A stretch of DNA of 33,579 nucleotides, taken from positions 1-33,579 of IMG/VR virus record IMGVR_UViG_3300048091_000433, one strand, 5' to 3'. The notes below the pieces were generated by a model. It was not told the origin of the DNA. It worked only from the letters and a program-made list of their open reading frames with translations, and made no database searches. Position 1 is the stretch's first letter, and the number at the start of each line of letters is the position of its first letter. Origin of the DNA: a virus. The translations under genes and the position numbers were made by a program. Shown piece after piece: positions 1 through 17,243 of the stretch.

Positions 1-339
1 ATGAAAACAGATAACGAAATTCCGAAGGAAGCCGAACTGCGCTGGGAATGGATCAAGTTCCAGCTGCGGGCTAAAGGCACTTCGCTGGCTCAATTGGCTC
101 GCCAACTCGAAGTTGAGCGTAATGCGCTTAACAACGTAAAGCGCGTTGCCTATCCCCGCATGGAGCGAGCTATCGCCAAAGCCCTGGGTCTTACTCCTTT
201 TCAGATCTGGCCAGAGCGTTGGGATCAAAGCGGAGAACCGTTTCGTCAGCGACCAGGTCGGGCTGAAAAATCTTCGGAAATCGCGCAGAAGTCTAACGGT
301 TTATCACCTAAAACACACCATCGCACAGGGAAGGCTTGA
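1..339 (+). CDS. ner: Ner-like DNA-binding regulator (Nlp family)
   Basis: This is a 112-residue protein with a helix-turn-helix in its first half (about residues 27-50, around SLAQLARQLEVERNALNNV), followed by the YPRMERAIAKALGLTPFQIWPERW signature of the Ner/Nlp family. In Mu, Ner is a small early repressor that turns down the early and repressor promoters after induction; that role is inferred here from family and position. It lies directly before transposase A, as in Mu. The C-terminal third is basic, polar and probably disordered. The ATG is the first base of the window, so the ribosome-binding site and early promoter cannot be seen and a longer start cannot be excluded. Confidence 0.85.
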   Translation: MKTDNEIPKEAELRWEWIKFQLRAKGTSLAQLARQLEVERNALNNVKRVAYPRMERAIAKALGLTPFQIWPERWDQSGEPFRQRPGRAEKSSEIAQKSNGLSPKTHHRTGKA

Positions 340-341
340 GC

Positions 342-2381
342 ATGACCAAGTCACTTGGATGGTTCACAGCTAAGGAGTTGGCTGGGCTCCCCGGTATGCC
401 GGGAAGTGACCGGGCAATTCAGATCCGCGGAAAGGATAGTTGGGAGTGGCGCAAGCGAGCAGGGACCAAGGCGATTGAATATTCGCTTGGCTCTCTACCT
501 GTCGAAACGCAAGAGGTTTTACTCACGCGTGAAGTTGGTAGCTCTGAACCAACTACCGATCTGCTGCTGGTCCATTCCGATTCGGAATTGACTGAGCGTG
601 ACGCTAAATCATCGTCACGCCTGAACAATAAACAGCGAAATGTGATGCTTGCACGTCTGTCATTTATTCGGGAGATCGAACGTGTTGGTGCGGTAACTAC
701 TCAGAAAAACGCTATCGACGTTCTGGTCAAGCAGGCTCAAGACAATGCGCTGAGCCCGTATCTGATGGAGCGCGTAGACCTTGCGAACGACAGAAAAACC
801 GGAAGCCGAGCATTGTCTGAGCGGACATTGAAACGGTGGTTGTCTGCATATCGTGCCCAAGGTGAGAGCGGCTTAGCGCCTCTCCGTCAGAAGCCGAGTA
901 CCGACGTTCCTGAATGGCTGCCAACGTTTCTTCGGTGCTATCAGAGACCAACGAAGCCAAGCGTAGCTGCAAGTTACGGAGAGTTCCTTGCTCGCTACCA
1001 AGGCGAAACACCTCCAAGCATTCATGCTGTGCAGCGGTTCTTAAAAAAACTCACGCCAGAGGCTCTCAACGTAGGTCGGATGAGTCCGCAGGAATTGAAG
1101 GCGCTGCAGCCGTTTCGTCGCAGATCTACCAAGAATCTGTTTCCTGGGGATGTTTATACCGCTGACGGCCATAAGTTCGACGCTGAGGTACTCAATCCAC
1201 TTACAGGCAAGCCCTATCGCCCGGAAATTACAACAGTTCTCGACGTGGCGACCCGTCGCGTCGTTGGGATATCTGTTGGCGAGGCGGAATCAGCAATAGG
1301 CGTATTGGATGCTCTCCGTGATGCGGTGGGTAAATGCATGTTCGCGATTTTCTACGTCGACAACGGATCAGGCTTCGACAACGAAACGGTACGCGAGGTT
1401 GTTGATCGTCTAGGCGGAACGATGACCCATTCCTTGCCTTATAACAGCCAGGCGCGTGGGTTGTCGGAGCGCGGTCATCAAACAATCTGGGTACGGGCGG
1501 CCAAGAAATTGGTCAGCTACATCGGCGCGGACATGGATAAGCATGCCGGTACGAAGGTGCATCGGATCGGTCGTAGAGAACTGAAAAAAACCGGCTCTAC
1601 AAGATTGCTCCCTTCATTCGCTGAGTTCATGGCGGGCGTCGAGGATGAAATTAACTCTTACAACCGCACTCCGCACCGAGGCCTTGAAAAAGTTCGAGAT
1701 CCTGAGACTGGTTCATTAAGGCATCCAAGCCCTGATGAAGCCTGGGATGCAGCCTGTGCCGAGGGATGGGAGCCAATCGCTGCGTCCCCTGAATTGATTG
1801 AATCACTAATGCGGCCGCAAATCGTTCGCCAGACCCGTCGTGGTGAAATTTCTTGGCTCGGCAATACCTACTTCCTCAACGACCTACGCGGCTTGCACGG
1901 ACAAGAAATACGGTTGGCCTACGACGTTAGAGATGCTGGGCGTGTTTGGACATACACGTTAGACGGAGAGCTTATAGGGGAAGCAGTTCTAGACGGCAAC
2001 TCCACCGACTATATGCCAATGAGCATGCTGGAGCTTGGGCGCCAAAAGCGGGCTCAGGGACAAGTCAAACGATCTATGGACAAGCTGGAGACGCTGACAG
2101 GACATCGAGTGGAGATGATTGCACCGACCACCGCGCCATCCGCAACGCTTACCCATGAACAATTGATTTCTGCTCAGGAGTTCGCGGCCGCTCTGGAGGC
2201 GGAAGCACCGAAATTTCATATACCAGGTGATGACGTTTCCCGTTACCGGCTATGGATCAAGCTCGATGAGCGCGCAAAAGCCGGGGAAATGCTGACCGCT
2301 GACGAAGCCAGATGGTTGGAAGGGTATCCCGCCCATCCGGACTTCGTAGCGATGCAAGAAGTGTTTCAACACGTGGGCTAA
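342..2381 (+). CDS. A: Mu-type DDE transposase A
   Basis: This 679-residue protein catalyses strand transfer during transpositional integration and replication of the phage. The N-terminus (WFTAKELAGLPGMPGS) is the Mu-type winged-helix end-binding domain. The catalytic core carries D275 (TADGH), D340 (YVDNGSGF) and E376 (SERGHQTIW), spaced like the MuA DDE triad. A C-terminal beta-barrel region follows (around RGEISWLGNTYFLNDLRG), then a helical tail that in Mu contacts B and ClpX. I chose ATG 342 because GGAAGG lies 7 nt upstream. A TTG at 336, overlapping the ner stop, would add two residues. The gene follows ner almost without a gap, which suggests co-transcription. Confidence 0.97.
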   Translation: MTKSLGWFTAKELAGLPGMPGSDRAIQIRGKDSWEWRKRAGTKAIEYSLGSLPVETQEVLLTREVGSSEPTTDLLLVHSDSELTERDAKSSSRLNNKQRNVMLARLSFIREIERVGAVTTQKNAIDVLVKQAQDNALSPYLMERVDLANDRKTGSRALSERTLKRWLSAYRAQGESGLAPLRQKPSTDVPEWLPTFLRCYQRPTKPSVAASYGEFLARYQGETPPSIHAVQRFLKKLTPEALNVGRMSPQELKALQPFRRRSTKNLFPGDVYTADGHKFDAEVLNPLTGKPYRPEITTVLDVATRRVVGISVGEAESAIGVLDALRDAVGKCMFAIFYVDNGSGFDNETVREVVDRLGGTMTHSLPYNSQARGLSERGHQTIWVRAAKKLVSYIGADMDKHAGTKVHRIGRRELKKTGSTRLLPSFAEFMAGVEDEINSYNRTPHRGLEKVRDPETGSLRHPSPDEAWDAACAEGWEPIAASPELIESLMRPQIVRQTRRGEISWLGNTYFLNDLRGLHGQEIRLAYDVRDAGRVWTYTLDGELIGEAVLDGNSTDYMPMSMLELGRQKRAQGQVKRSMDKLETLTGHRVEMIAPTTAPSATLTHEQLISAQEFAAALEAEAPKFHIPGDDVSRYRLWIKLDERAKAGEMLTADEARWLEGYPAHPDFVAMQEVFQHVG

Positions 2382-2402
2382 GCCCCACGCTTAATACAGT
2401 AG

Positions 2403-2420
2403 GTGTGCCTGCCAGCACAC
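2403..2420 (+). other. Small inverted repeat between A and B
   Basis: GTGTGC (2403-2408) and GCACAC (2415-2420) form a perfect 6-bp stem with a 6-base loop in the 58-bp gap between A and B. No T-tract follows, so it is not an obvious terminator. It could be a weak mRNA structure or a chance palindrome. Confidence 0.3.
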
Positions 2421-2439
2421 GAACAAGGAGAGAAACACA

Positions 2440-3162
2440 ATGAGTGTAACCAAGATTGTGCCATTAACAAACGTAGGATTGCTTGCTGGCGCTCTGAGGC
2501 GTGCTCAAGCTCGTCCTAGTGGACTTCCTGGCTTGGTGGCGATGTACGGCCCAAGTGGTTTTGGAAAAAGCGCGGCTGCAGCTTATTCAGCAAATATGCA
2601 TCGCGCCTATTACATCGAATGCCGCGATGCTTGGAGCAAGAAAGCCTTCCTACAGGCAATCCTGCGAGAAATGTGCGTGCATCCCCATCGCACCATGTCA
2701 GAGATGGTGGATCAGATTGCTGTTCAATTAAGCACTTCGATGCGTCCTTTGATCATCGATGACGTTCAGTATTTGCTTGATAAGGCTGTGGCTAATGTCC
2801 TGACAGATATCTACAACGCCAGCCAAGGGACCATCGTGCTCATCGGTGAAGAGAGAGTTCCTGCGTCATTGGCAAAACTGGAAAGGCTACACAACAGGGT
2901 ACTGGAATGGGTTCCGGCCCAGGCAGCAACGTTGGAAGATATTCGCAAACTTGCTGAGCAGAGCTATCCGAATGTTGAGTTCGCCGATGACCTCTTGGAG
3001 GACTTGAATAAAGCCACGCGAGGGTGCTTGCGACGTGCAGCTGTGAATCTGTTTAAGGTCCAATCAGAAGCTACTGCCATGATGATCAAGAAGATTGATA
3101 TGGCGGCATGGGGAGGGCGTGGATGGTTCACGGGCGAGGCTCCTGCTCGGAGGTCTCACTAA
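2440..3162 (+). CDS. B: MuB-like AAA+ ATPase, transposition target activator
   Basis: This 240-residue ATPase has Walker A at residues 37-44 (GPSGFGKS) and Walker B at about 104-108 (LIIDD). It belongs to the MuB/TniB-like AAA+ group, which polymerises on target DNA, delivers it to the A-DNA complex and gives transposition immunity. A strong AGGAG-type ribosome-binding site precedes ATG 2440. Mu B has about 312 residues, including an N-terminal DNA-binding appendage. Here the AAA+ core starts almost at once and no such appendage is visible. The next gene overlaps its stop codon (TAATG) and encodes a probable winged-helix protein. Confidence 0.93.
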   Translation: MSVTKIVPLTNVGLLAGALRRAQARPSGLPGLVAMYGPSGFGKSAAAAYSANMHRAYYIECRDAWSKKAFLQAILREMCVHPHRTMSEMVDQIAVQLSTSMRPLIIDDVQYLLDKAVANVLTDIYNASQGTIVLIGEERVPASLAKLERLHNRVLEWVPAQAATLEDIRKLAEQSYPNVEFADDLLEDLNKATRGCLRRAAVNLFKVQSEATAMMIKKIDMAAWGGRGWFTGEAPARRSH

Positions 3163-3902
3163 TGGTTAAGCCAACGCAACTTCGCTTAATTGGCGGCAAG
3201 GAGCCTCGCCAGCACATGTGGGAGGCGGTTCGTGACAATCGTAGTGGTTTTACGGCGCGCCAAATTGCCATGCAATCCCGCCAAGCAGGTATGAGTGTTG
3301 AAAACTACATTCGCGCATTGAGCAGAGCATCGCTTATTGAGCTGGTCGATGAAGGCTCAAAGTTTGTTGACCATCGATGGCGCCTTATTCGAGACGAGGG
3401 TGCGGAATATCCAAGAGTAGCGAGTAACGGGAAGCGCTCGCGGCGTGGGCTGGGCTTGGAAAACCTTTGGCGAACTCTGCGCATCATGGGTGAAGTTACC
3501 GCAGCAGACGCCGCAGAAATGGCCAGCAACGGTGGTGTAGTAGTAAGCCAGGCGTATGCAGCAAATTACTTTGCGGTACTTGTTCGAGCTGGCTACCTGG
3601 TGGCGAGCGAGCATAACTATCAGCGTGCTCAAACTTACAAGCTTGCGCCGGGGAAGCGACCAGGGCCACGCCATCCGGTAGTTCAGCGATCCGAGGCAGT
3701 GCAGGTATTCGATCCGAATTTGAATATGGTCGTTTACTCGAATGTTGCTTCGGGAGGTGTGTCTGACGCGTCTGCTCCTGATAACGACATGCAGCAGGAA
3801 AACCTTCGCCTCCGTAAGTTGCTGACTGAGTTCATCGACGCGGGCTTGGGCGGTGTCACCACCAGCCTACTTCAGAGGGCGCAATTGGAGATGGCGGAAT
3901 GA
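3162..3902 (+). CDS. Early protein with probable winged-helix domains
   Basis: This 246-residue protein begins at an ATG overlapping the B stop codon, with GGAGG 8 nt upstream. An in-frame ATG at 3108 lies inside B and has no such support. Two stretches look like winged-helix modules: about residues 16-75 (FTARQIAMQSRQAGMSVENY, then a basic wing-like region) and about 95-160 (LENLWRTLRIMGEVTAADAA, then NYFAVLVRAGYL). A coiled-coil-like segment (MQQENLRLRKLL) sits near the end. The function is not known. The position next to B suggests a role in early transcription or in target-DNA handling. This call comes from reading the sequence, not from a recognised family name. Confidence 0.75.
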   Translation: MVKPTQLRLIGGKEPRQHMWEAVRDNRSGFTARQIAMQSRQAGMSVENYIRALSRASLIELVDEGSKFVDHRWRLIRDEGAEYPRVASNGKRSRRGLGLENLWRTLRIMGEVTAADAAEMASNGGVVVSQAYAANYFAVLVRAGYLVASEHNYQRAQTYKLAPGKRPGPRHPVVQRSEAVQVFDPNLNMVVYSNVASGGVSDASAPDNDMQQENLRLRKLLTEFIDAGLGGVTTSLLQRAQLEMAE

Positions 3903-4273
3903 CCCGAGTCGATATTTCTGCCTGGGGCGCGGAGCCTCCTTTGTTTGTTCAATTGCTTGCAGCTGAAGTTGGTGTAAGCAATCGAACGCGCGCAGCCGAA
4001 CGCGTAGGTATTAGTCGAACCGCTGTAAGTCTGATCCTGGTTAACAAATACAGCAGTCCAAGCACTGCCGGAGTCGAACGACGGGTAATGGACTCGCTTG
4101 GTCGAATTGAATGTGTCGCTGTTGGCGAGACACTGACAATCGAGCGGTGCCAAAGCTATCGCGAGAAGCCAGCCCCAACGCACAACCCACAAGCGATGCA
4201 GCTCTGGCAGGCCTGCCAGCACTGCCCCAACAATCCAAATTGCGCAGGTGCCGGAAATGCAACCGTCCACTGA
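3899..4273 (+). CDS. Small HTH protein with C-terminal cysteine cluster
   Basis: This 124-residue protein overlaps the preceding stop (ATGA at 3899). Residues about 27-50 (SNRTRAAERVGISRTAVSLIL) read as a lambda-repressor-like helix-turn-helix. The C-terminus carries C84, C106, C109 and C115 (WQACQHCPNNPNC), a plausible metal site of C-x2-C-x5-C type. Similar HTH-plus-cysteine proteins occur in the early region of Mu-like Pseudomonas phages, but I know of no demonstrated function. A transcriptional regulator is the simplest guess. Confidence 0.75.
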   Translation: MTRVDISAWGAEPPLFVQLLAAEVGVSNRTRAAERVGISRTAVSLILVNKYSSPSTAGVERRVMDSLGRIECVAVGETLTIERCQSYREKPAPTHNPQAMQLWQACQHCPNNPNCAGAGNATVH

Positions 4274-4439
4274 GCTTGTTCGCCCGCAAATACCTGTAGT
4301 TCAGATTTACATATCTGGACGCAGTTTGATCCGCCTGTATGTGGGAGAAAAATGCGTTGGGTTCTCCGAGTCCTACAAGTTCGCGCAGATTCGTGCGGAA
4401 GAGTTGGCGAACGCTTGTCGTCAACAGGAGGTGCATTGA
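4257..4439 (+). CDS. Short hypothetical protein
   Basis: This 60-residue ORF (ATG 4257; a GTG at 4248 would add three residues) bridges the otherwise uncovered 165 bases between its neighbours. It overlaps the gene before it by 17 nt and shares a TGATG junction with the gene after it. No clear ribosome-binding site is visible, so translation may be coupled to the upstream gene. The protein reads as a small beta-rich domain (VVQIYISGRSLIRLYVGEKCVGF). The function is unknown. The main argument for it being real is the gap-filling position and the overlapping junctions. Confidence 0.55.
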   Translation: MQPSTELVRPQIPVVQIYISGRSLIRLYVGEKCVGFSESYKFAQIRAEELANACRQQEVH

Positions 4440-4930
4440 TGCGTACTCGATGCCCTAACTGTGGAACGACGCTCAGCCTGGATGCCCTCATTGCCCATGA
4501 TGGTGCCCGCGACGCGCTGGGGGTGGCATTCAAATTGTCCGGCCAACTGGGCAACGCGTTGATTAGGTATGTCGGCTTGTTTCGTCCGGAAACCCGTGAG
4601 CTGACTTTGGATCGGGTGGGCAAACTCCTCAACGAGCTGCTGCCAGATCTGCAAGCCCAGCGTATCGAACGTAATGGCGCCGTGTTCAACGCTCCTACAG
4701 CCTGCTGGATTTGGGCAATGGAGCAAGCAATAGGTGCTCGCGATTCCGGCCGACTGGCTACACCGCTCAAAGGGCATGGCTGGCTGTACCAGGTCATGAC
4801 GCAATGGCAAGGCGAAGCAACGGCAGTGCTGCTACCTGAAGCCTCGCAGCCGAAACAACCCATGCTAGGCAGGCCGAGTCAGACAACAGCAGCTCTTGCG
4901 GCACTACAGGGGCGGTTGAATGGAGGGTGA
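4439..4930 (+). CDS. Hypothetical early protein with N-terminal CPNC knuckle
   Basis: This 163-residue protein starts at ATG 4439 in a TGATG overlap, with an excellent AGGAGGT 6 nt upstream. The frame is open from 4352, but the ribosome-binding site decides for 4439. Residues 5-8 (CPNC) form a single zinc-knuckle half, and I see no second cysteine pair. A helical middle part (RELTLDRVGKLLNELLPDLQ) follows, and the C-terminal 30 residues are Pro/Ser/Gln-rich. The function is unknown. It lies in a tightly overlapping run of early genes. Confidence 0.75.
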   Translation: MRTRCPNCGTTLSLDALIAHDGARDALGVAFKLSGQLGNALIRYVGLFRPETRELTLDRVGKLLNELLPDLQAQRIERNGAVFNAPTACWIWAMEQAIGARDSGRLATPLKGHGWLYQVMTQWQGEATAVLLPEASQPKQPMLGRPSQTTAALAALQGRLNGG

Positions 4931-5312
4931 TTGGCTACAGCGTGAGGTGATTGCAGGGCTCATGGGGCTTGTTGCCCTTCGCCTCGACGGTGCGCCCGCT
5001 GCCGACGCTATCACCCACACGCTTGATATATGGCTGGTTGCCTTGAAAAAGGCACAGCGCTGGAACGAAGAGACAGATGGGGCGCGGGTTAAAGCCGCAT
5101 TCGAGGCGCTGTTTGCAAGCTGCGAGCGCTGGCCTGCACCGGCCGCATTGATTCGGGCGATACCGCTTCGACAAATCCAGCAGGCATTACCTAAGCCCGC
5201 GCTAACGGAAGAACAACGCGCTAATGGGCGTCGTCGGATCGGGGAGATCCTCGGTGCCTTGAAGTACAGCAACACCAAACATGAAACGAATATGGAGCAG
5301 GACAAAGAATGA
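4920..5312 (+). CDS. Hypothetical early protein
   Basis: This 130-residue, mostly helical protein overlaps the previous gene by 11 nt and the next one by an ATGA. The central part (RVKAAFEALFASCERWPAPAALIRAIP) resembles small phage proteins associated with replication, but I cannot name the family with confidence. The C-terminus (HETNMEQDKE) is charged and probably disordered. The overlaps imply translational coupling in the early operon. Confidence 0.7.
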   Translation: MEGDWLQREVIAGLMGLVALRLDGAPAADAITHTLDIWLVALKKAQRWNEETDGARVKAAFEALFASCERWPAPAALIRAIPLRQIQQALPKPALTEEQRANGRRRIGEILGALKYSNTKHETNMEQDKE

Positions 5313-5950
5313 TTATCCCAGAAGGGTTCCGCAAAGACGCCAAGGGTCACTTGGTTCCAGTCGAAATGATCAAGCCAATTGATCTGGCCCGAGACGAACT
5401 GGTCATTGAACTTGTCGACAAGGCGAAGGCTATTTCCAAGGCGCTAAGCGCTTTTAAGGCAGGCGCTTTCGGTGACATCAAGGCATTCGTTGAAATGTCT
5501 GCCGAGCAGTACAAAGCCACCATCGGCGGAAAGAAAGGCAACGTCACTCTGTTGTCGTTCGATGGCCGTTACAAGATCGTTCATGCGGTACAAGACTCGA
5601 TCAAGTTCGATGAGCGGCTTCAGGCTGCCCGCGCCTTGATTGACGAGTGCGCTGCTGAGTGGACGCAAGACGCTCGAAGTGAAGTGCGTGTACTGGTGAA
5701 TGAGGCGTTTCGTACAGACAAGGTAGGTGAAATCAGTACCGGGCGTGTGCTTGCGCTTCGCCGGTTGGAGATTTCGGACTTGCGATGGCAGCGCGCAATG
5801 CAGGCCATCAGTGACGCTGTGCAGGTCGTTGGTTCCAAAAGTTACGTTCGGATCTATGAGCGTATCGGTGATAGCGACCAATACGCCTCAATTCCATTGG
5901 ATATCGCCAGTGCTTTTGTTGCGGCTTCTGCGCCGTCGACGCTGCACTGA
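5309..5950 (+). CDS. DUF3164 family protein
   Basis: This 213-residue protein begins in an ATGA overlap. The opening (IIPEGFRKDAKGHLVPVEMIKPIDLARDELV), the KKGNVTLLSFDGRYKI block and the closing part (AISDAVQVVGSKSYVRIYER) match the DUF3164 family, common in the early region of Mu-like phages. The biochemical role is not known. I saw no separate gene resembling the Mu Gam nuclease inhibitor in this window. Only a 59-bp spacer separates it from the next gene. Confidence 0.85.
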   Translation: MIIPEGFRKDAKGHLVPVEMIKPIDLARDELVIELVDKAKAISKALSAFKAGAFGDIKAFVEMSAEQYKATIGGKKGNVTLLSFDGRYKIVHAVQDSIKFDERLQAARALIDECAAEWTQDARSEVRVLVNEAFRTDKVGEISTGRVLALRRLEISDLRWQRAMQAISDAVQVVGSKSYVRIYERIGDSDQYASIPLDIASAFVAASAPSTLH

Positions 5951-6009
5951 TCTGAATTCGTCACTGACTACCCCTCATTCAGCACTGAACGTACGAGAGC
6001 GAACAAATT

Positions 6010-6246
6010 ATGGCCAAGTTCCAAATCACCATCGAAGACAGCGCCGATGGCGTTTCTATCCAGGTAGACAACCAAGCCCAATTGAGTGGCAGTAAAGCGG
6101 GACGCGTAGCGAGCGCCCTCATGACCGGCGCACCAATGCTGCTTGCTCGTATCCCTGTCGATTTTGCCGTAGGGCATATCGCGTGTGATTGCGAGATCTG
6201 TCAGGCCATGCGCGAAAAACAGATGACCAAACCAACTATTCACTAA
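6010..6246 (+). CDS. Small cysteine-containing hypothetical protein
   Basis: This 78-residue protein has an amphipathic beta-rich N-terminus (FQITIEDSADGVSIQV) and a C59-x-C61-x2-C64 cluster (ACDCEICQAM) that could bind a metal. The function is unknown. The notable point is its 3' end: the stop codon TAA (6244-6246) touches the first base of a hammerhead ribozyme, so the terminating ribosome would cover the start of that ribozyme. Confidence 0.65.
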   Translation: MAKFQITIEDSADGVSIQVDNQAQLSGSKAGRVASALMTGAPMLLARIPVDFAVGHIACDCEICQAMREKQMTKPTIH

Positions 6247-6307
6247 GCGAAACCACCTTGGGTAACTGAGGTGGTCTATCCGGCGCGGTGGCCGGGTACT
6301 GATGAGC
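6247..6307 (+). ncRNA. Type II hammerhead ribozyme, copy A
   Basis: All conserved hammerhead positions are present in type II order (open at stem II). Stem II strand GC (6247-6248) is followed by GAAA (6249-6252). Stem III follows: A6252-U6275 through G6261-C6266, 10 bp, capped by a GUAA tetraloop. The cleavage triplet GUC (6274-6276) comes next. Stem I is 6277-6284 paired with 6291-6298, 8 bp, with loop GCGGUG. Last come CUGAUGA (6299-6305) and the closing GC (6306-6307). Self-cleavage is predicted between C6276 and U6277. Stem II has only two clear base pairs, which is the main weakness. The second copy at 7414 supports the fold by compensatory changes. It sits between a stop codon and the start codon at 6321. 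Confidence 0.93.
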
Positions 6308-6320
6308 AGCCGAGGACGAA

Positions 6321-6737
6321 ATGGAACAAGCAGATTGGGATGCACTGAAGGAGCAGATGGCAAGCCCGTGGGGCTACATGAAGCTCAAGTGCGATGGGTT
6401 TGAGATCAGCCTATCGCAAGAGACAGACCGCACCAAAAAGAGTTGGTCGACAGTGGTCTACGTGGATGGATATTTGAAGGGTGTTTGGTTGGGTTGTGAC
6501 CACAAAACCGGCGAGCCCTTGCATGAGGAAACTCGCCGTTTCTATCGCAAGGTGACTCGTGCCCTTCATAACAAAAAGGATATCGAGGCCTATCGAAAAA
6601 TCTACGGTAAGCGCAAGGCAACGGAGATGGAGGCGGTCAAGTTTTTCACTTATGACTGGTCCTGGAAAAGCTTCAGTTCTCTGAAAAAACACCTGCTGGC
6701 CAATAACACCAGCATCACGCGCATTGCCGAGGTCTGA
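6321..6737 (+). CDS. Hypothetical protein between the two ribozymes
   Basis: This 138-residue protein starts at ATG 6321, preceded by a GAGGA-like ribosome-binding site (6312-6316) just after the copy A ribozyme. The sequence is rich in aromatic and basic residues (KFFTYDWSWKSFSSLKKHL) with a beta-rich N-terminal half (MKLKCDGFEISLSQ, TVVYVDGYLKGVWLG). I do not recognise a named family. It and the following DUF2786 gene are the only two ORFs in the RNA segment bounded by the two predicted cleavage sites. Confidence 0.75.
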   Translation: MEQADWDALKEQMASPWGYMKLKCDGFEISLSQETDRTKKSWSTVVYVDGYLKGVWLGCDHKTGEPLHEETRRFYRKVTRALHNKKDIEAYRKIYGKRKATEMEAVKFFTYDWSWKSFSSLKKHLLANNTSITRIAEV

Positions 6738-6741
6738 CGCC

Positions 6742-7413
6742 ATGGACCACAGTAAAGCTCTCGAAAAGATCAAGAAGTGCATGCGCCTGGCTGCAAGCAG
6801 TAATCCTCATGAGGCTGCTGCAGCGATGCGCCAGGCTCGTGCCCTGATGGATAAGTACCGCATTGAGGAGTCCGATGTTGCGCTTTCAGACATTCAGGAA
6901 TGCGCATCAAAAAGTGGCTCCAAGAACACACCCTCTCAGTGGGAGGCGAACCTGGCTGGATGCGTCAGGCGCGCCTATGCCTGCGAATTTCTGTTCATGG
7001 CGGGCGTGGGCGAATGGCGGTTTATCGGTGAGTTCGCTGAGGTGGCCAGCTACACCATGACGGTTTTGCTTCGTCAGGTGCGCCAAGCCCGCCGCGATTT
7101 CATCAATGACAGGCTCAGTCGATGCAAGGCGTCGACCAAGACCAAGCGCGCAGACGTTTTCTGCGATGCGTGGGTTTGGGAAGTCCGCAAGAAAGTCATG
7201 GAGTTCACGGGCAGCGATACACCATCGGACCTTGCTGCCGCCTACATGCTCAAGCATCACCCTGAGCTGATGTCAGGCAGCGCCCGTGATCGTAATGCCG
7301 GCAAGCAGATAAGCAACCGATCCTTGACCGATGCAATGCACGGCATCGAGGCGGCAAGCGATGTCCGGTTAAACCATGGTGTGAACGGACAAGAACGGCT
7401 GGCATTGAATTGA
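6742..7413 (+). CDS. DUF2786 domain protein
   Basis: This 223-residue protein begins with a clear DUF2786 module (ALEKIKKCMRLAASSNPHEAAAAMRQARALMDKYRIEESDV, about residues 4-45). A second domain of the type often joined to it in phages follows. ATG 6742 is preferred over an in-frame TTG at 6724. The molecular function of DUF2786 is not established; it is common in phage early regions. The gene lies 4 nt after the preceding one. Its TGA (7411-7413) touches the first base of the second hammerhead ribozyme. Confidence 0.85.
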   Translation: MDHSKALEKIKKCMRLAASSNPHEAAAAMRQARALMDKYRIEESDVALSDIQECASKSGSKNTPSQWEANLAGCVRRAYACEFLFMAGVGEWRFIGEFAEVASYTMTVLLRQVRQARRDFINDRLSRCKASTKTKRADVFCDAWVWEVRKKVMEFTGSDTPSDLAAAYMLKHHPELMSGSARDRNAGKQISNRSLTDAMHGIEAASDVRLNHGVNGQERLALN

Positions 7414-7473
7414 GCGAAACCACCTCGGCAATCGGGGTGGTCTGCCAGGCGTAGTGGCCTGGTACTGACGAGC
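7414..7473 (+). ncRNA. Type II hammerhead ribozyme, copy B
   Basis: The same architecture as copy A. Stem II strand GC (7414-7415) precedes GAAA (7416-7419). Stem III runs from A7419-U7441 to G7427-C7433, with a short GCAAU loop. The cleavage triplet is GUC (7440-7442). Stem I is 7443-7450 paired with 7457-7464, loop GUAGUG. Then come CUGACGA (7465-7471, allowed N7 = C) and GC (7472-7473). Predicted cleavage is between C7442 and U7443. Compared with copy A, a C-G pair in stem I is replaced by A-U (A7447-U7460), U-G by C-G, and stem III swaps U-G for C-G and G-U for G-C. The fold is kept while the sequence drifts. Confidence 0.93.
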
Positions 7474-7482
7474 AGCTAACCA

Positions 7483-7761
7483 ATGACACAGGAAACCCCG
7501 GTCGAACGGAAACGCCGGCTTGCCCGCGAGCGACAACAGCGTAAGCGTGACGCTCGCACAGCAAAGCTTAAGGCGATGGGCGCATCAAAATTCAAGATGG
7601 AGATGTATTCGGGAACAAGTGCTGCCTTGGAGACGGTTCGGACGGCTGGGGAATTCGATGATGCGGCCGAGGCACTGACGTTACTCATTCACGCAGCGGC
7701 CAAACTGGCGAAGCGTGATCTGATAGCGTTCAGGGAGTTGGTCGAAGTGAGGAGAAAATGA
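7483..7761 (+). CDS. Small basic hypothetical protein
   Basis: This 92-residue protein has a strongly basic, helical N-terminus (ERKRRLARERQQRKRDARTA) that could bind nucleic acid, then an alpha-helical C-terminal half (EALTLLIHAAAKLAKRD). The family is not recognised. It starts 9 nt after the copy B ribozyme and has no good ribosome-binding site of its own apart from the purine-rich bases of the ribozyme's 3' strand. It overlaps GemA by an ATGA. Confidence 0.65.
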   Translation: MTQETPVERKRRLARERQQRKRDARTAKLKAMGASKFKMEMYSGTSAALETVRTAGEFDDAAEALTLLIHAAAKLAKRDLIAFRELVEVRRK

Positions 7762-8171
7762 ATCGGCGCAACCTTGATCTATCAAAGATCCATATTGCCA
7801 AGAAGGATTTGGCACTGGATGAAGACACCTACCGAGCAATGCTTCAGCGAGTAGCTGGTGTGAGTTCGGCGAAGGATTTATCACCACTGAAAACCTCTGT
7901 TGTGCTCGCGGAGCTGGAGCGCTTGGGATGGAAGCCAAAGAAATCTAAGGCAGGCAGAGCTGCGCCAAAAGTTGCACCAGATCGGGAAAAACTGGTTGGC
8001 AAAATCGAAGCCTTTCTGGCCGAAGCTGGACGGCAGTGGGCTTATGCCGATGGTATGGCGCAACGCATGTTCAAGGTCGAGCGAGTGGAATGGTTGGATG
8101 CCCGGCAGCTCGGGAGCATGGTGTCGGCCCTGGCCTACGATGCCAAACGGAATGGGAGAACGACACAGTGA
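7758..8171 (+). CDS. gemA: GemA/gp16 regulatory protein (DUF1018)
   Basis: This 137-residue protein matches the Mu gp16/GemA family: an N-terminal IHIAKKDLALDEDTYRAMLQRVAGVSSAKDLS block and a C-terminal MFKVERVEWLDARQLGSMVSAL block. In Mu, GemA is an early protein affecting host gene expression and DNA supercoiling; the exact activity is uncertain. ATGA overlaps with both neighbours place it in one translationally coupled group with the Mor-type activator, as in other Mu-like phages. Confidence 0.9.
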   Translation: MNRRNLDLSKIHIAKKDLALDEDTYRAMLQRVAGVSSAKDLSPLKTSVVLAELERLGWKPKKSKAGRAAPKVAPDREKLVGKIEAFLAEAGRQWAYADGMAQRMFKVERVEWLDARQLGSMVSALAYDAKRNGRTTQ

Positions 8172-8611
8172 GCAATGACCAGTTATTTGCTGACGACAGT
8201 GACAAGCTTGATCCCAAGAAAGTTTTGGCCCATATGGAAGACCCTATCGTTTCTGCTCGATGGGAGGGAAACCTTAAGGAGATGGTCGAGCTTGCTGAAT
8301 TTGAGCTGTTGAAAAAGCTTCCAGAAAAACCCGAGGCAGTACCCGAAATTGCGCGTGCAGTCGTGTTTTCGATCTGCTCCACCATGGGTGGCTCAGTGAT
8401 TTATCTGCCGCGTGGAGAATCGCTCAAGCGAGCAATGCGAGACGCTGAAATCTACCGTGAATGGTTGGATGCTGGGGCGCAGCCCCATGAGCTGGTGCGC
8501 AAGTATCAGCTTTCTTCAGCCATCATCTACGGCATCATTAAGCGTCAACGGGGATTGCACAGACAGAATGGGCCTGACTTGTTTGGCTTTGAGCAGGAGA
8601 CCATCCACTGA
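8168..8611 (+). CDS. mor: Mor/C-family transcriptional activator
   Basis: This 147-residue protein starts at GTG 8168, overlapping the GemA stop, with GGGAGA 8 nt upstream. The central dimerisation part (PEIARAVVFSICSTMGGSVIYLPRGESL) and the C-terminal helix-turn-helix (AQPHELVRKYQLSSAIIYGIIKRQ) are typical of the Mor transcription activator family. Mu uses Mor for the middle promoter and C for late promoters. Only one such protein is seen here, so it may itself drive the late operons that begin just downstream. Candidate targets are the repeated elements at 8665, 17191 and 28667. Confidence 0.92.
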   Translation: MSNDQLFADDSDKLDPKKVLAHMEDPIVSARWEGNLKEMVELAEFELLKKLPEKPEAVPEIARAVVFSICSTMGGSVIYLPRGESLKRAMRDAEIYREWLDAGAQPHELVRKYQLSSAIIYGIIKRQRGLHRQNGPDLFGFEQETIH

Positions 8612-8641
8612 TAGCATTGCCCTGAGTAATGCCGCTCCACC

Positions 8642-8669
8642 AACCCCCGCCGTTGCGGGGGTTTTCTTG
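8642..8669 (+). terminator. Rho-independent terminator of the early/middle operon
   Basis: A 9-bp GC-rich stem (8642-8650 paired with 8655-8663) with a CGTT loop is followed by TTCTTG. It lies 30 nt after the mor-like stop codon. Its T-rich tail runs straight into the first copy of the repeated late-promoter-like element at 8665. Confidence 0.88.
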
Positions 8670-8686
8670 TCTGAATAAGAAACTCG
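8665..8686 (+). promoter_or_regulatory. Candidate late promoter/activator site, copy 1
   Basis: TCTTGTCT-G-AATAAGAAACTC occurs here 58 nt before the first lysis-region gene and again at 28667 with two differences in 22 bases. A diverged copy lies at 17191. All three precede late gene blocks, directly after a Mor/C-family activator gene in this case. No canonical -35/-10 pair is obvious, as expected for an activator-dependent promoter. The assignment is inference. Confidence 0.55.
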
Positions 8687-8743
8687 GTCACATCTCCCAA
8701 AGCGCGAATCTAGCTCGGTACTTCTTACCGACGGGTTCACGTC

Positions 8744-9061
8744 ATGTCTGTCTCGGTTCCTACAACCCCACGTGCATTTGCTGCTCAGATTCTTGAGGGC
8801 AGCTTTTCGTGCGAGTCGATTCTCGAACGGTGCCCTGTCGAATGGCATGACCTGGTCATGGAACACGTTCGCGTAACTCAGGACCGACGCGACATGAACG
8901 TCGCCCGTCAGCAGAAGTTTCGGCCGCAGGCCAAACCATCGAGCCCGAAAACCACCACCTACCAGGAGCAGCACCTGGTGCGCGGCAATCCTGTCGTTGC
9001 AGCTGCGCATCTGGCTGCTGTTCGGGCCTCCCTCAACTCCAATCGAGCGATCTCACAATGA
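8744..9061 (+). CDS. Hypothetical protein, first gene of the lysis block
   Basis: This 105-residue protein has a helical N-terminal part (RAFAAQILEGSFSCESILERCPVEWHDLVMEHV) and a basic, Pro/Thr/Gln-rich middle. I do not recognise a family. It is the first gene after the candidate late promoter and overlaps the holin-like gene by an ATGA, so it belongs to the lysis operon. A structural or regulatory role cannot be told apart from the sequence. Confidence 0.7.
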   Translation: MSVSVPTTPRAFAAQILEGSFSCESILERCPVEWHDLVMEHVRVTQDRRDMNVARQQKFRPQAKPSSPKTTTYQEQHLVRGNPVVAAAHLAAVRASLNSNRAISQ

Positions 9062-9353: not shown

Positions 9354-9986
9354 ATGACGCGATCACGAATCCTACTCGCTGGTTGCTTGATTGGTTTGGT
9401 GGCTGGCCTCGCACTCTGCGGCCAGGCTCGCGCCGAAATTCCGATGCAGGCCGAACAATACCGACGCGATCTATCCCGCATTGCCCAGGCTGAATGGGGT
9501 CTGGAAGCACCCGTTGCCACCTTCGCGGCGCAAGTTCACCAGGAGAGCCGCTGGAAGTTCAACGCGAAGTCACCTGCAGGTGCGCAAGGCTTGGGCCAAG
9601 TGATGCCCACGACCGCCACTTGGCTTGCCGAACTTTTCCCCAAGGCTCTTGGAAAAGTCGAGCCATACAACCCGACTTGGTCGATGCAGGCCCTGGTCAG
9701 CTATGACCGTTGGTTGGCGGACCGTATTAAGGCACGAGACCCATGCCAGCAAGGCGCCATGGTCCTGTCCAGCTACAACGGCGGACTGGGGTGGCTGATC
9801 CGTGACCGCAAGTTGGCATCGGCAAAGGGCGCCGATCCGCTGACCTGGTTCGGGTCCATCGAGCGATTCAACTCTGGCCGCTCTGCTGCGGCCTTCAAAG
9901 AAAACCGGCAATACCCCCGCCTAATCCTGCAGCGCTGGGAGCGCCTGTATGTCGATGCTGGCTGGGGTAAAGGGGTATGCCAATGA
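9354..9986 (+). CDS. Secreted lytic transglycosylase (endolysin)
   Basis: This 210-residue protein has a Sec-type signal peptide (basic MTRSR, hydrophobic core, probable cleavage after GQARA). A lysozyme-like SLT domain follows, with the catalytic glutamate E64 in HQESRWKFN, then AGAQGLGQVMPTTATW and a later SSYNGG. It would cleave peptidoglycan in the periplasm. ATG 9354, 3 nt after the holin stop, is preferred because it gives the signal peptide directly; the frame is open further upstream. It overlaps the spanin gene. Confidence 0.9.
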   Translation: MTRSRILLAGCLIGLVAGLALCGQARAEIPMQAEQYRRDLSRIAQAEWGLEAPVATFAAQVHQESRWKFNAKSPAGAQGLGQVMPTTATWLAELFPKALGKVEPYNPTWSMQALVSYDRWLADRIKARDPCQQGAMVLSSYNGGLGWLIRDRKLASAKGADPLTWFGSIERFNSGRSAAAFKENRQYPRLILQRWERLYVDAGWGKGVCQ

Positions 9987-10612
9987 AGGAAACACTCAAG
10001 TGGTTTGCGCCTCTGCTCATCGCATTGGCTTTGGTCGGCGCCGTATTCCTGTTCGTCGAGCACACCCGGCAAGCCGGTTATGACGAAGGGTTCATTGCCG
10101 GAGAGGCCAAGGGGGCGGAGCCATATCAAAAGCTCAAAGACGAAGTTGAGGGCGAACGCCTAGCGCTGGCCCGCGAAGATTTGGCGAAAGCTCAGGCCAC
10201 TGCCCAATTGATCCTGGAGCAAACCAAGCGTGGCGATGACCTGGCCAGTCAACTCGTCACCACCAAACAAGAGCTTCGCCGAAATACCGACAAGCTCACT
10301 GGAGAGATAAACCGTGTCACGACTCTATATCGCCGCGCCTTGGATGCACCGCCTGAGCCTTTGCCTACTGCTGTGTTCACTACCGGCTTTGTCCGCGTGT
10401 GGAACGAAGGCCTTAACCCAACCGCAATGCGTGCCAAGCAGCCCGCCAGCGGAGCTGCTGCGACTTCCGGAAGCCCCGGAGCCGCTGACGACCTCGACAG
10501 CGGAATAACTCCAGCTGTCCTTCTAACCAACCAAGTGCGCAATAGCGAGAAGCATGCTTCTTGCCGCGCTCAGCTTACAAGCCTGATCGAGTACTACACC
10601 CATGGACGTTGA
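9983..10612 (+). CDS. Rz-like inner-membrane spanin
   Basis: This 209-residue protein has one N-terminal membrane anchor (about residues 8-25, FAPLLIALALVGAVFLFV) and a long periplasmic helical region rich in Ala, Glu, Lys and Gln (about 50-115), as in i-spanins. With the outer-membrane partner it would fuse the two membranes in the last step of lysis. ATG 9983 has AAAGGGG at a suitable distance; ATG 9977 is too close to it. A second reading frame nested inside encodes the lipoprotein partner. Confidence 0.85.
   Translation: MKETLKWFAPLLIALALVGAVFLFVEHTRQAGYDEGFIAGEAKGAEPYQKLKDEVEGERLALAREDLAKAQATAQLILEQTKRGDDLASQLVTTKQELRRNTDKLTGEINRVTTLYRRALDAPPEPLPTAVFTTGFVRVWNEGLNPTAMRAKQPASGAAATSGSPGAADDLDSGITPAVLLTNQVRNSEKHASCRAQLTSLIEYYTHGR
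10314..10508 (+). CDS. Rz1-like outer-membrane lipoprotein spanin, nested in Rz
   Basis: This 64-residue protein lies wholly inside the Rz-like gene in another frame. It has a hydrophobic signal (LSLCLLLCSLPALSAC) ending in the lipobox LSAC, so C29 would be acylated. The short mature part is proline-rich (QCVPSSPPAELLRLPEAPEP), as usual for Rz1. The GTG start at 10314 has GGAGAG 7 nt upstream; the internal ATG at 10344 has no such site. Confidence 0.88.
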   Translation: MSRLYIAAPWMHRLSLCLLLCSLPALSACGTKALTQPQCVPSSPPAELLRLPEAPEPLTTSTAE

Positions 10613-10817
10613 TGACCGCGCCACCGAAGTCGAGGAAGCGCATCGAGAGGCTGCTTTAGCGGCGCATTTGGCACAAGCAAAACAACCCGAGCGCCCCTCA
10701 TCTTTCCACTGTGAAGATTGTGGCGGAGCAATTCCAGAGCCGCGCCGCGTAGCTGTACCAGGTGTTTCGCTCTGCGTGGATTGCAAATCCATCCATGAGT
10801 ACTTGGGGCGCAAATGA
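10602..10817 (+). CDS. DksA/TraR-type C4 zinc-finger protein
   Basis: This 71-residue protein has a helical, acidic N-terminal half and a C4 zinc finger, C37-x2-C40 and C58-x2-C61 (FHCEDCGGAIPEPRR, LCVDC), typical of the TraR/DksA family. Some members bind RNA polymerase through its secondary channel and change promoter choice. The short phage forms like this one are mostly uncharacterised. It overlaps Rz by 11 nt and the next gene by an ATGA. Confidence 0.88.
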   Translation: MDVDDRATEVEEAHREAALAAHLAQAKQPERPSSFHCEDCGGAIPEPRRVAVPGVSLCVDCKSIHEYLGRK

Positions 10818-11122
10818 ACATGATCGAGATGCCACCTTGGCAATTGATCGCGTCAGCGATAACCCTCCTGGGGATCTTCGCAGGCTTGGTCAGGTTGCTG
10901 CTCTCTCAGATGGAGGGGCGCCTGGACGAGCGCTTTGCAGCTGTCGCGAAGGACTCCGAACGACTTCGCCAGGTCGAGCTTGGCTTGGAGCGTCTACGCG
11001 GTGAGATGCCTCTGCACTACGTCCGCCGTGAGGACTACGTGCGAAATCAGACAGTCATCGAGGCCAAGCTCGACGCCCTGGCCCTCAAGTTCGAAAACGT
11101 TCAGCTCAAAGGAAAATTGTAA
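10814..11122 (+). CDS. Mu gp25-like protein (DUF2730)
   Basis: This 102-residue protein has one N-terminal membrane segment (about residues 9-30, QLIASAITLLGIFAGLVRLLL) and then a coiled-coil-like region (DERFAAVAKDSERLRQVELGLERLRGEM). Size, layout and position before a gp26-like gene and the small terminase match Mu gp25. The function is unknown. TAATG links it to the next gene. Confidence 0.8.
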   Translation: MNMIEMPPWQLIASAITLLGIFAGLVRLLLSQMEGRLDERFAAVAKDSERLRQVELGLERLRGEMPLHYVRREDYVRNQTVIEAKLDALALKFENVQLKGKL

Positions 11123-11433
11123 TGAACATCGACCATGCGAAGGCCCGACGCGAAACACTGCGCTGGTACATCCTCCTTACTCTCAATACGTCTCGTCCGG
11201 TTGATCCGCATGAGGCAGTGGTGCTCTCAACGATCCAGGGCATCTACGCCGACGCGACGCAGCTGGAGTTACGCCGTGAGTTGGACTATCTGAAAGATCG
11301 TTCCCTGGTAACACTGAAAAAGCAGCCAAACGGAGTATGGATCTGCGGGCTAACCCACTATGGCGTGGACATTGCCGAGTACACCATCGACTGCAATCCC
11401 GGGATCGCCCGGCCTGAAAAGTACTGGTCGTGA
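11122..11433 (+). CDS. Mu gp26-like winged-helix protein
   Basis: This 103-residue protein has a winged-helix appearance (RRETLRWYILLTLN, then DATQLELRRELDYLKDRSLVTL and the wing NGVWICGLTHYGVDIAEY). It corresponds in size and place to Mu gp26. The family is usually listed as of unknown function; a DNA-binding role near the packaging genes is possible. It starts in a TAATG overlap. Confidence 0.82.
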   Translation: MNIDHAKARRETLRWYILLTLNTSRPVDPHEAVVLSTIQGIYADATQLELRRELDYLKDRSLVTLKKQPNGVWICGLTHYGVDIAEYTIDCNPGIARPEKYWS

Positions 11434-11436
11434 CTC

Positions 11437-11949
11437 ATGCCGCCACGTAGCAAGGTGACCGCACTGCCGGCCGAGGTAAAGACCTGGCTCGATCAGTCAT
11501 TGGTCGAGTCGAACTTTTCTGGGTATGAATCCCTATCGGCTGAGCTGGAAAGCCGAGGCTACTCCATTGGTAAAAGTGCCCTGCATCGCTACGGCTCAGA
11601 GTTTGAGGTCAAGCTGGCATCGCTTCGGATGGCGTCAGAGCAAGCAAAAGCGGTAGTCCAGGCGGCCCCCGATGAAGAAGGGGCTGTCAACGAGGCGCTC
11701 ATGCGCCTTGTACAAGAACACCTATTCAAGCTGCTGATGGCTGACGCAGGAAAGATCGACCTTCCGAAGGTGGCCAAGGCTGTCGCCGAGCTTGGTCGTG
11801 CGTCGGTTGTGCAGAAGAAATGGCAGGCCGAGTTCCGAGAGAAGGCCGAAGCCGCTGCTTCCCGTGTCGAGAAAATCGCGAAGAAAGGTGGCTTGAACGC
11901 CGAGACAGTCAACGAAATCCGTCGCGAAATATTGGGAATGGCGTCATGA
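11437..11949 (+). CDS. Small terminase subunit, Mu gp27-like (DUF3486)
   Basis: This 170-residue protein opens with a helix-turn-helix region (LPAEVKTWLDQSLVESNFSGYESLSAELE, then YSIGKSALHRYG), followed by long helices, and fits DUF3486/Mu gp27. Small terminase recognises phage DNA at the packaging site and hands it to the large subunit. In Mu, packaging starts near the left end and proceeds headful-wise into host DNA. Its stop overlaps the large-subunit start (ATGA). Confidence 0.9.
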   Translation: MPPRSKVTALPAEVKTWLDQSLVESNFSGYESLSAELESRGYSIGKSALHRYGSEFEVKLASLRMASEQAKAVVQAAPDEEGAVNEALMRLVQEHLFKLLMADAGKIDLPKVAKAVAELGRASVVQKKWQAEFREKAEAAASRVEKIAKKGGLNAETVNEIRREILGMAS

Positions 11950-13499
11950 GTCTGCCTCTGTTCCTCGACAGCACCGCCACCCTAAGCGCCCCAGCGGTAT
12001 TGCTCGACTATCAGAAAGAGTGGATCGGTATCCGCGCCCCGCTCAAGGTCGGCGAGAAGTCCAGGCGTATTGGTCTCACTTGGGCCGAGGCGGCCGATAA
12101 CGTCTTGGTGGCTGCCGCCGAAAAATCAGCGGGTGGTCAGACGGTTTATTACCTGGGCTACAACCAGGACATGACGGTTGAGTACATCCAGGCCTGCGCA
12201 ATGTGGGCGCGTGCCTTCAACTATGCAGCCGGGGAAATCGAAGAAGGTATCTGGCCGGACAGTGATCCTGACAAGCACATCAAGACCTACACCATCGTGT
12301 TCCCCAGTGGGCACCGAATCGTTGCACTGACCAGTCGCCCATCTAACTTGCGTGGCCGTCAGGGTGTGGTCGTGATCGATGAGGCGGCGTTCCACCAGGA
12401 TCTTGCTGAGCTGCTTAAGGCGGCGCTCGCTCTCCTGATATGGGGCGGTGAGGTTCATGTCATCAGTACACACGACGGCACCGAGAACGCATTTAATGAA
12501 CTGATCAACGATATCCGTGCTGGCAAGCGTAAGGGCGCACTGTTCCGCTGCCCATTCCGTGAAGCGGTCAGTGACGGGCTTTATCAGCGCGTGTGCTTGC
12601 GTAAAGGGATTGAGTACAGGGAAGAAGAGGAAGCCGCTTGGGTTCAGGACGTCTATGACTTCTACGGCGATGCGTCGGAGGAGGAGCTTGATTGTGTCCC
12701 ATCTCAAGGCGGCGGTGCCTTCCTCAGCTTGGCCCTGGTCGAGCAACGCAGCAATCGTGAAGTGCCAGTGCTTCGTCTTGCCTACCCGCAAGGGTATGAG
12801 GTCCAGGAGGAGCATATCCGTTTGGCCGAATCCCTTGAGTGGTGCGAAGAAAACTTGCTCCCGCTGCTCAATGCTATTCCTTTGGATGTGCAGAGCTTCT
12901 ACGGCATGGACTTCGCTCGTAGCGGAGATCTGTCGGTGATCTGGCCGTTGGTCAAAGAACAGAACCTGCGCAAACGCACACCCTTTGTAGTCGAGCTGCG
13001 CAACGTCCCGTTCAAGCAGCAGTTTCAAATCAAGTGCTACATCATCAGTCGCCTGCCCAACTTCCTAAAAGGTGCGGACGATGCCAGGGGCAACGGCTCG
13101 CAGTTGTCTGAAGACACTGCCATCGAGTTTGGTTTCAACCGTATCGAACGGGTGATGCTTACCGAGGGTTGGTATCGGGACAACATGCCGTTGTTCAAAG
13201 CCGCTCTTGAAGACGACACGTTCTACGACATCCCTGCCGACAAGGACGTCGTGAGCGACGTGCGCGCCTTTCGCGTGGTCAAGGGTGTGGCGCGAATCCC
13301 AGAAAAGCGCACCAACGAGAAAGGCGAAAAGTCTGGGCCAAAGCGCCACGGTGACGCCGGGATCGCGGCCGTACTAGCTGATTACGCCTCTCGCCAAGAT
13401 GTCGAGATATTTGAATTTCACCGCGTCCCGCCATCAGGTAGTCACGACCGTACGGTTCAGACTGGCGGCGGCTGGCGCTCTAATAAAGGCATCTGGTAA
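11946..13499 (+). CDS. Large terminase subunit, Mu gp28-like
   Basis: This 517-residue packaging motor begins at ATG 11946 in an ATGA overlap. The ATPase half has a degenerate Walker A region (KSRRIGLTW, residues about 38-46) and Walker B at 141-146 (VVVIDE, with D145 and E146). The RNase-H-like nuclease half starts around D322 (YGMDFARSGDLSV). The Mu gp28 group is known for such an atypical Walker A. It translocates DNA into the prohead through the portal encoded next. Confidence 0.93.
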   Translation: MSLPLFLDSTATLSAPAVLLDYQKEWIGIRAPLKVGEKSRRIGLTWAEAADNVLVAAAEKSAGGQTVYYLGYNQDMTVEYIQACAMWARAFNYAAGEIEEGIWPDSDPDKHIKTYTIVFPSGHRIVALTSRPSNLRGRQGVVVIDEAAFHQDLAELLKAALALLIWGGEVHVISTHDGTENAFNELINDIRAGKRKGALFRCPFREAVSDGLYQRVCLRKGIEYREEEEAAWVQDVYDFYGDASEEELDCVPSQGGGAFLSLALVEQRSNREVPVLRLAYPQGYEVQEEHIRLAESLEWCEENLLPLLNAIPLDVQSFYGMDFARSGDLSVIWPLVKEQNLRKRTPFVVELRNVPFKQQFQIKCYIISRLPNFLKGADDARGNGSQLSEDTAIEFGFNRIERVMLTEGWYRDNMPLFKAALEDDTFYDIPADKDVVSDVRAFRVVKGVARIPEKRTNEKGEKSGPKRHGDAGIAAVLADYASRQDVEIFEFHRVPPSGSHDRTVQTGGGWRSNKGIW

Positions 13500-16326: not shown

Positions 16327-16330
16327 CAAA

Positions 16331-16356
16331 AAACCACGCGCCGCCACACGTGGTTT
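16331..16356 (+). terminator. Hairpin after MuF, possible terminator
   Basis: AAACCACG (16331-16338) pairs with CGTGGTTT (16349-16356), 8 bp with a 10-base loop, 5 nt after the MuF stop. The 5' side is A-rich (AACAAAAAACC), but only TTTC follows on the 3' side, so termination on the + strand would be weak. It may act mainly as an mRNA-stabilising or attenuating hairpin. Confidence 0.5.
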
Positions 16357-16432
16357 CGCCCTGAGTGTAGGCCTGGAGGTCCTGGCGGGGACTGCTCACT
16401 CAATGGGCGTTCATTGATAGTAGGAGATGCAC

Positions 16433-17002
16433 ATGGCAGGCGCAATGCTCAATGTCGAAGTGGATGACAGCCGGTCTGGTGCAGTGTTGGCGGAGTTGGC
16501 AGAGCGGTTGGAGGATATTCGTGTACCGCTCCTGGATATCGCTGAATACCTGCATCAGTCCACGGACGACCGCTTTAGAAGGCAGGTCTCTCCCGACGGT
16601 GCTCCGTGGGCACCATTGGCCGCGTCCACTATTGCTAAAAAGAAGTCGAGCCAGATCCTGCGGCAAGACGGTTTTCTCCAGGACACCATCCGGCATCGGG
16701 TCAGCGGTGACGAATTGGAGTTAGGTTCGGATCGCCCATACGCGGCTATCCATCAGTTCGGTGGCAAGATCGAGCAGGCCGCCAGGTCGCAACAGGTTTA
16801 CTTCAAGCATAAGGGTGGCGAAGTCGGAAATCGCTTTGTCAAAAAGAGGCAGTCCAACTTCGCCCAGTGGGTGACCCGTGGTGCGACTTCTACCGAGATG
16901 CCGGCTCGACCTTATCTCGGCCTGTCATCCGAGGATGACGATGAGATCCTCGCCATCGTGTCGGACTATCTTTCTGAACCATTGGAGGCCGGTCCAAGGT
17001 AA
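16433..17002 (+). CDS. G: Virion morphogenesis protein, Mu gpG-like
   Basis: This 189-residue protein matches the Mu gpG/phage virion morphogenesis family: FRRQVSPDGAPWAPLAASTIAKKK near residue 50, ILRQDGFLQDTIRHRV, and DRPYAAIHQFGGKI. Members act in head-tail completion. ATG 16433 has AGGAG 6 nt upstream; an in-frame ATG at 16427 is too close to that site. The gene follows a 106-bp gap holding a hairpin and precedes the longest gap of the window. Confidence 0.88.
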   Translation: MAGAMLNVEVDDSRSGAVLAELAERLEDIRVPLLDIAEYLHQSTDDRFRRQVSPDGAPWAPLAASTIAKKKSSQILRQDGFLQDTIRHRVSGDELELGSDRPYAAIHQFGGKIEQAARSQQVYFKHKGGEVGNRFVKKRQSNFAQWVTRGATSTEMPARPYLGLSSEDDDEILAIVSDYLSEPLEAGPR

Positions 17003-17212: not shown

Positions 17213-17243
17213 ATCGTTGATCGATGCCGCTGAAACTAGCGGC

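Follow-up and report, generated by a model that had tools for sequence, protein, structure and literature searches.

A Mu-like phage probably cuts its early messenger RNA with two type II hammerhead ribozymes that fit tightly between the stop codon of one early-operon gene and the start codon of the next

Thousands of bacterial and phage hammerhead ribozymes are known, and to our knowledge a purpose has been proved for none of them. The closest described relatives of the elements considered here, two type II hammerheads (Rfam RF02276, Hammerhead_II) in the early operon of a phage, are those of Perreault et al. 2011 (PMC3088659). These authors reported that a pseudoknot between loop I and the 3' tail controls the speed of type II hammerheads, and that cleavage occurs in vitro in three clustered bacterial arrangements and, for one of these, on expression in Escherichia coli as well; the triple array around ardA in Agrobacterium tumefaciens cleaves in both settings. 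They also described HHphage, a variant hammerhead of the archaeal haloviruses HF1 and HF2, situated in the early gene region 13 nucleotides (nt) upstream of a start codon. According to another paper (PMC10085705), which summarizes earlier work, hammerhead and twister ribozymes of bacteria are associated most strongly with the genes of Mu-like phages, for a reason that it calls unknown. The DNA analyzed here, hereafter the window, is a stretch of 33,579 bases (positions 1 to 33,579 of IMG/VR virus record IMGVR_UViG_3300048091_000433) which, judged by gene content and order, is a Mu-like transposable phage. It carries two type II hammerheads, copies A and B (Table 1).

Compared with published RF02276 members, the window shows no structural difference, sharing the order of parts, the core, the two-pair stem II, the pseudoknot between loop I and the 3' tail, and the clustering around prophage gene blocks. 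The ardA array differs in being set among other genes and in lacking the DUF2786/gemA/mor order. Site A resembles HHphage in its 13-nt distance to the start codon and its early gene region. What this locus adds to the 2011 description is an exact abutment on the stop codon and two sites that are conserved through gene turnover in a single phage lineage.

When the window was run against all 4227 Rfam families, RF02276, which has a cut-off of 37 bits, matched both copy A (69.8 bits, E 9.4e-13) and copy B (66.4 bits, E 7.2e-12). A lineage-specific model, R1, run with filters off, gave 84.9 bits for copy A and 81.5 bits for copy B, and found no third, degenerate copy in the window, the next best match reaching 10.0 bits (E 0.71). 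A sequence-only reading had claimed a complete type II hammerhead at copy A, placed it in the early operon, and predicted the cut between 6276 and 6277. The scan bears out the first claim, the Mu-like gene order agrees with the second, and the third stands as a prediction, with C17 invariant across all related sites; the part coordinates and core positions given in that reading, including the A15.1-U16.1 pair, likewise held when we reread the sequence. Stems I and III are closed by loops and stem II is open, the CUGANGA core, GAA, and A15.1-U16.1 are in place, and position H17 is not G. Copy A is a complete and very probably active type II hammerhead.

Conservation across related phages points the same way. 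We compared 63 orthologous or paralogous sites, comprising the 2 from the window, 5 from phage records retrieved because the DNA of the gene region was similar, and IMG/VR loci found by protein homology for the rest; the 61 sites outside the window were never gathered by ribozyme pattern. The GC/GC stem, GAA, A15.1-U16.1, C17, and CUGANGA are identical in 63/63. The sole variable core position is N7 (T at 46 sites, C at 15, and A at 2), and position 7 is the hammerhead core position known from biochemistry to accept any base. A core that is fixed except at its tolerant position argues that the element is neither dead nor merely structural.

The paired regions covary. In alignment A1 (47 sequences, 24 pairs), 98.5% of cells pair, with two-sided changes at 12 pairs; none of 500 shuffles reached the observed values, and slid versions gave 26-51%. 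Stem III alone shows two-sided changes at 7 of its 10 pairs. The sequence-only reading had counted only two sure pairs in stem II, as we do, and had suspected that activity might rely on a contact between loop I and the flanks; that contact is a 4-base-pair (bp) pseudoknot, backed by covariation. Its pairs in copy A are C6286-G6312, G6287-C6311, G6288-C6310, and U6289-G6309. In copy B, the same register sets U7452, A7453, G7454, and U7455 against A7478, U7477, C7476, and G7475, so that two pair changes between the copies, C-G to U-A and G-C to A-U, are compensated. Across 100 distinct sequences whose stem I hairpin measures 22 nt, the pseudoknot was paired in 397 of 400 cells, against at most 386 in shuffles and 164 and 175 in slid registers; in alignment A1 it was 100% paired, with two-sided changes. 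A pseudoknot of loop I with the 3' tail is present in most Hammerhead_II members, and the one found here, with its 4 bp and compensatory changes, is of that kind.

We consider it probable that copies A and B cut the nascent polycistronic early messenger RNA (mRNA) co-transcriptionally, between C6276 and U6277 and between C7442 and U7443. Transcription of the early operon would yield the ribozyme RNA, which would fold and then cut after C17, presumably leaving 5'-OH and 2',3'-cyclic phosphate ends. The upstream mRNA would then extend about 30 nt beyond its stop codon and close with the stem III hairpin; a two-gene mRNA of 1,166 nt (6277-7442) would be freed, flanked by a stem I hairpin with a 5'-OH and, at its 3' end, a stem III hairpin; and the mRNA for the 92-amino-acid (aa) protein, GemA, and the Mor-like activator would begin at 7443 with a hairpin of its own. 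The most likely purpose is that each block gains its own RNA ends, and with them stability and translation independent of its neighbors.

The ribozymes are fitted closely between genes throughout the lineage. At 62/63 sites, an upstream stop codon comes no further than 1 nt from the ribozyme, directly adjoining it at 51, one base before it at 10, and overlapping it by one base at 1 (locus L263); the remaining site, from a record that has no annotation and is flagged as unverified, has no such stop. The start codon of A sites follows 13 nt past the last ribozyme base (that of the closing GC), with the first base of the Shine-Dalgarno-like GAGGA lying on the pseudoknot strand. For B sites, the distance from ribozyme to start codon is usually 7-9 nt. 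The 138-aa gene has a ribozyme directly upstream in 21 of 22 phages, these having been found via homology to the 138-aa protein. It was also observed that B-site starts (window 7474-7483 and relatives) have no clear Shine-Dalgarno sequence (AGCTAACCAATG, AGCCACCCATG), unlike the GAGGA of site A, and the 92-aa gene may have a weak or unusual translation start.

Two copies bracket a gene block in most relatives, and the sites are kept while the gene content changes, in the order DUF3164, variable genes, ribozyme, variable block, ribozyme, 92-aa gene, gemA, and mor. The block holds the 138-aa gene with the DUF2786 gene (as in the window), the 138-aa gene alone (L246, L261, and L263), the 138-aa gene with another gene (L245), the DUF2786 gene alone (L266, L268, L269, and L271), or a 70-aa gene with the DUF2786 gene (L265). 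The DUF2786/DUF7168 gene is thus missing from some relatives; between L246 and L255, which have nearly identical flanking genes, it is cleanly absent or present just before ribozyme B. Distant DUF2786 homologues in other viruses (about 35-38% identity) had no such ribozyme, which ties the ribozyme to the locus and not to DUF2786. Concerted evolution of A and B was considered and rejected, as identity was 78.4% within phages and 74.3% between phages (n = 16), a weak excess.

Named relatives carry single copies. A type II hammerhead lies ahead of the gemA/mor genes in D3112 (NC_005178, 9439-9510), MP22 (NC_009818, 8315-8386), and JBD24 (NC_020203, 8476-8547), and Ab30, LPB1, and HKPH_J3 have one ribozyme copy each. 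In D3112, the cut is predicted near 9471/9472. The ribozyme is not among the annotated features shown in the D3112, MP22, and JBD24 records, nor among those shown for LPB1 (NC_027298), where a terminator and a promoter are annotated at 7819-7833 and 7914-7942, in the gap that ends with the ribozyme (about 7997-8068).

Packing between genes extends to other viruses. We scanned viral contigs and bacterial genomes for the core pattern, which gave at least 120 loci in each. Among the matches listed, type II elements of sound structure (119 in total) were present at 77 of 120 viral loci, against 8 of 120 bacterial loci passing the stem test, where the pattern is mostly chance; the stop codon of the longest upstream frame ended at -6 to +1 of the ribozyme in 69 of 125 distinct elements, again among the matches listed. 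A close stop and a close start occurred together at 47 of 81 viral type II elements versus 2.6% of random positions. By the same rule, they occurred together at 32 of 60 viral type I elements and, in a small and weakly filtered sample, at 3 of 25 type III elements. The idea that only type II would sit between genes, because it leaves a hairpin on both products, was not upheld, as viral type I packs alike. Several type I hammerheads per viral contig were seen, also between stop and start codons (e.g., L404, L318, and L389).

The extreme case is IMGVR_UViG_3300017605_000570 (57,338 bases), a tailed-phage contig with terminase, portal, and contractile-tail sheath genes. It has 24 Hammerhead_II matches that exceed the cut-off; they share one strand and a stretch of about 7.6 kb (9932-17520, equal to 1433-9021 of locus L295), and the lineage-built model likewise finds 24. 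Of the 23 gaps between ribozymes, 21 hold a single gene whose stop is at -5 to +1 of the next ribozyme. Neither named phages nor viral contigs yielded relatives when searched with its 334-aa protein. The presence of 24 ribozymes in one phage favors a role in cutting over one in pairing or excision. Virus contigs L118, L035, and L050 have about 7-9 type II hammerheads each, two of which in L035 stand almost back to back (5049-5111 and 5115-5185). We suggest, tentatively and as a possibility short of an even chance, that hammerheads are standard phage gene spacers, i.e., that stop, ribozyme, and start form a module which can be inserted after any gene, and at the extreme after almost all genes of an operon, and breaks a long transcript up into messages of a single gene; ribosomes that finish or begin on the module might set the timing of the cut.

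With stop and start codons so close to the ribozyme, cutting may be slowed or prevented by ribosomes. Taken further, the ribozyme could be gated by translation: a terminating ribosome would hide its 5' strand, and a 30S subunit bound at the following start would hide the pseudoknot strand, so that poorly translated messages alone are cut. The adjoining stop at all but one site, the pseudoknot strand touching the Shine-Dalgarno sequence, the fixed distance to the A-site start, and the recurrence of this packing far beyond the lineage are all consistent with gating, but the argument is purely geometric, and compact phage genomes would also squeeze elements into the smallest gap; we regard it as doubtful. 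It is very unlikely that the ribozymes serve mainly as short homologies for swapping the gene block between phages: the content between the copies does vary with clean edges (L246, L255, and the window), but the similarity of A to B is only a little higher within a phage than between phages (values above), and homology alone would not select a catalytic core.

Alternatively, the paired ribozymes might excise the block, an RNA ligase then circularizing the block RNA or joining the flanking mRNAs through the 5'-OH and 2',3'-cyclic phosphate ends. Such ends suit RtcB-type ligases, and two copies do bracket the block in most relatives. However, D3112, MP22, JBD24, Ab30, and LPB1 have one copy only, and the phage with 24 ribozymes fits cutting and not pairing. 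Spliced or circular products of clustered hammerheads were sought by Perreault et al. and none were detected (PMC3088659), and we give excision hardly any credence. The weakest reading, that the hairpins act as an intrinsic terminator or passively stabilize the RNA and the hammerhead match is incidental or a dead relic, has in its favor two strong hairpins (fold z-scores of -2.4 and -2.9) and can be set aside, as there is no U-run (stem III is followed by CUAUCC), a terminator scan of the + strand from 5900 to 7800 found none, and a passive hairpin would keep neither unpaired catalytic bases invariant except at N7 nor a covarying pseudoknot.

It is also important to set out what weighs against co-transcriptional cutting as the role of the two copies. 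Cleavage in this phage is a prediction from sequence, structure, conservation, and placement. Stem II has only two pairs, and in a nearest-neighbor fold, made with a program that cannot model pseudoknots, CUG (6299-6301) pairs with CAG (6307-6309) and displaces it. Phages Mu and B3 have a related operon in which we found no such ribozyme, and the cut is thus not essential to the Mu-like lifestyle. Finally, we found in the literature no measured benefit of cutting for any phage hammerhead.

The carrier is recognized as Mu-like because genes for a MuA-type transposase and a MuB-type ATPase precede its early genes, GemA, and a Mor-like activator, and the domain and family matches behind this call are Mu-transpos_C, AAA/TniB, phrog_310, phrog_296, and phrog_532. 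GemA was identified by homology to annotated GemA. The genes 3' of the Mor-like gene are those for lysis, packaging, portal, and head. A tRNA search of the window found none. An RsmY-like match on the - strand at 8641-8777 is weak, scoring 17.7 bits (E 2.7) where the cut-off is 57, and most likely reflects chance.

Table 1. Parts of the two hammerhead ribozymes and genes of the early region, in window coordinates
Feature	Position	Strand	Remarks
Type II hammerhead ribozyme, copy A	6245-6315	+	Span of the Rfam model
TAA stop of 78-aa gene	6244-6246	+	Directly adjoins copy A; read from sequence
Stem II, 5' strand GC	6247-6248	+	Read from sequence
Core G12 A13 A14 (GAA)	6249-6251	+	Read from sequence
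Stem III, 10 bp	6252-6261/6266-6275	+	Loop GUAA 6262-6265; includes A15.1-U16.1 pair (A15.1 = 6252)
Predicted cleavage site, after C17 (6276)	C6276/U6277	+	Predicted from known hammerhead chemistry
Stem I, 8 bp	6277-6284/6291-6298	+	Loop GCGGUG 6285-6290; read from sequence; 99.7% of cells paired
Pseudoknot 5' strand CGGU in loop I	6286-6289	+	Pairs with 6309-6312
Core CUGAUGA	6299-6305	+	Invariant except N7
Stem II, 3' strand GC	6306-6307	+	Read from sequence
Pseudoknot 3' strand GCCG	6309-6312	+	Last base starts Shine-Dalgarno-like GAGGA (6312-6316) of 138-aa gene
Start ATG of 138-aa gene	6321	+	
Type II hammerhead ribozyme, copy B	7412-7481	+	Stop TGA 7411-7413 adjoins
Predicted cleavage site, copy B	7442/7443	+	
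78-aa gene	6010-6246	+	Upstream of copy A
138-aa gene, phrog_5671 (unknown function)	6321-6737	+	First gene of block bracketed by A and B
DUF2786/DUF7168 gene	6742-7413	+	223 aa from ATG 6742; second gene of block
92-aa gene, phrog_4093	7483-7761	+	Opens 92-aa/gemA/mor segment 3' of predicted cut B
MuA-type transposase	336-2381		
MuB-type ATPase	2440-3162		
DUF3164 gene	5309-5950		
GemA homologue	7758-8171		
Late-activator (Mor-like) gene	8168-8611		

Publications already cover type II hammerheads with their pseudoknot, the clusters that they form around prophage gene blocks, and the association with Mu-like phages (PMC3088659; PMC10085705). The window is a case of that association, and to PMC10085705 it adds the exact location of the sites, the way in which stop and start codons fit them, and orthologues in D3112, MP22, JBD24, Ab30, and LPB1. 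Stop codons are not mentioned in the text of PMC3088659, and in the open-access literature we found no paper linking D3112 and hammerheads. Within that literature, the stop-ribozyme-start packing and the 24-ribozyme phage look under-described and may be new, although earlier reports may exist.

If the ribozyme does trim the early message, self-cutting RNA would be a routine way for DNA phages to process mRNA, and would offer an off-the-shelf part with which to split operons. With its cultured Pseudomonas phages (D3112, MP22, JBD24, Ab30, and LPB1), a fixed site ahead of gemA/mor, and fitted stop and start codons, this lineage makes the purpose of the ribozyme testable.
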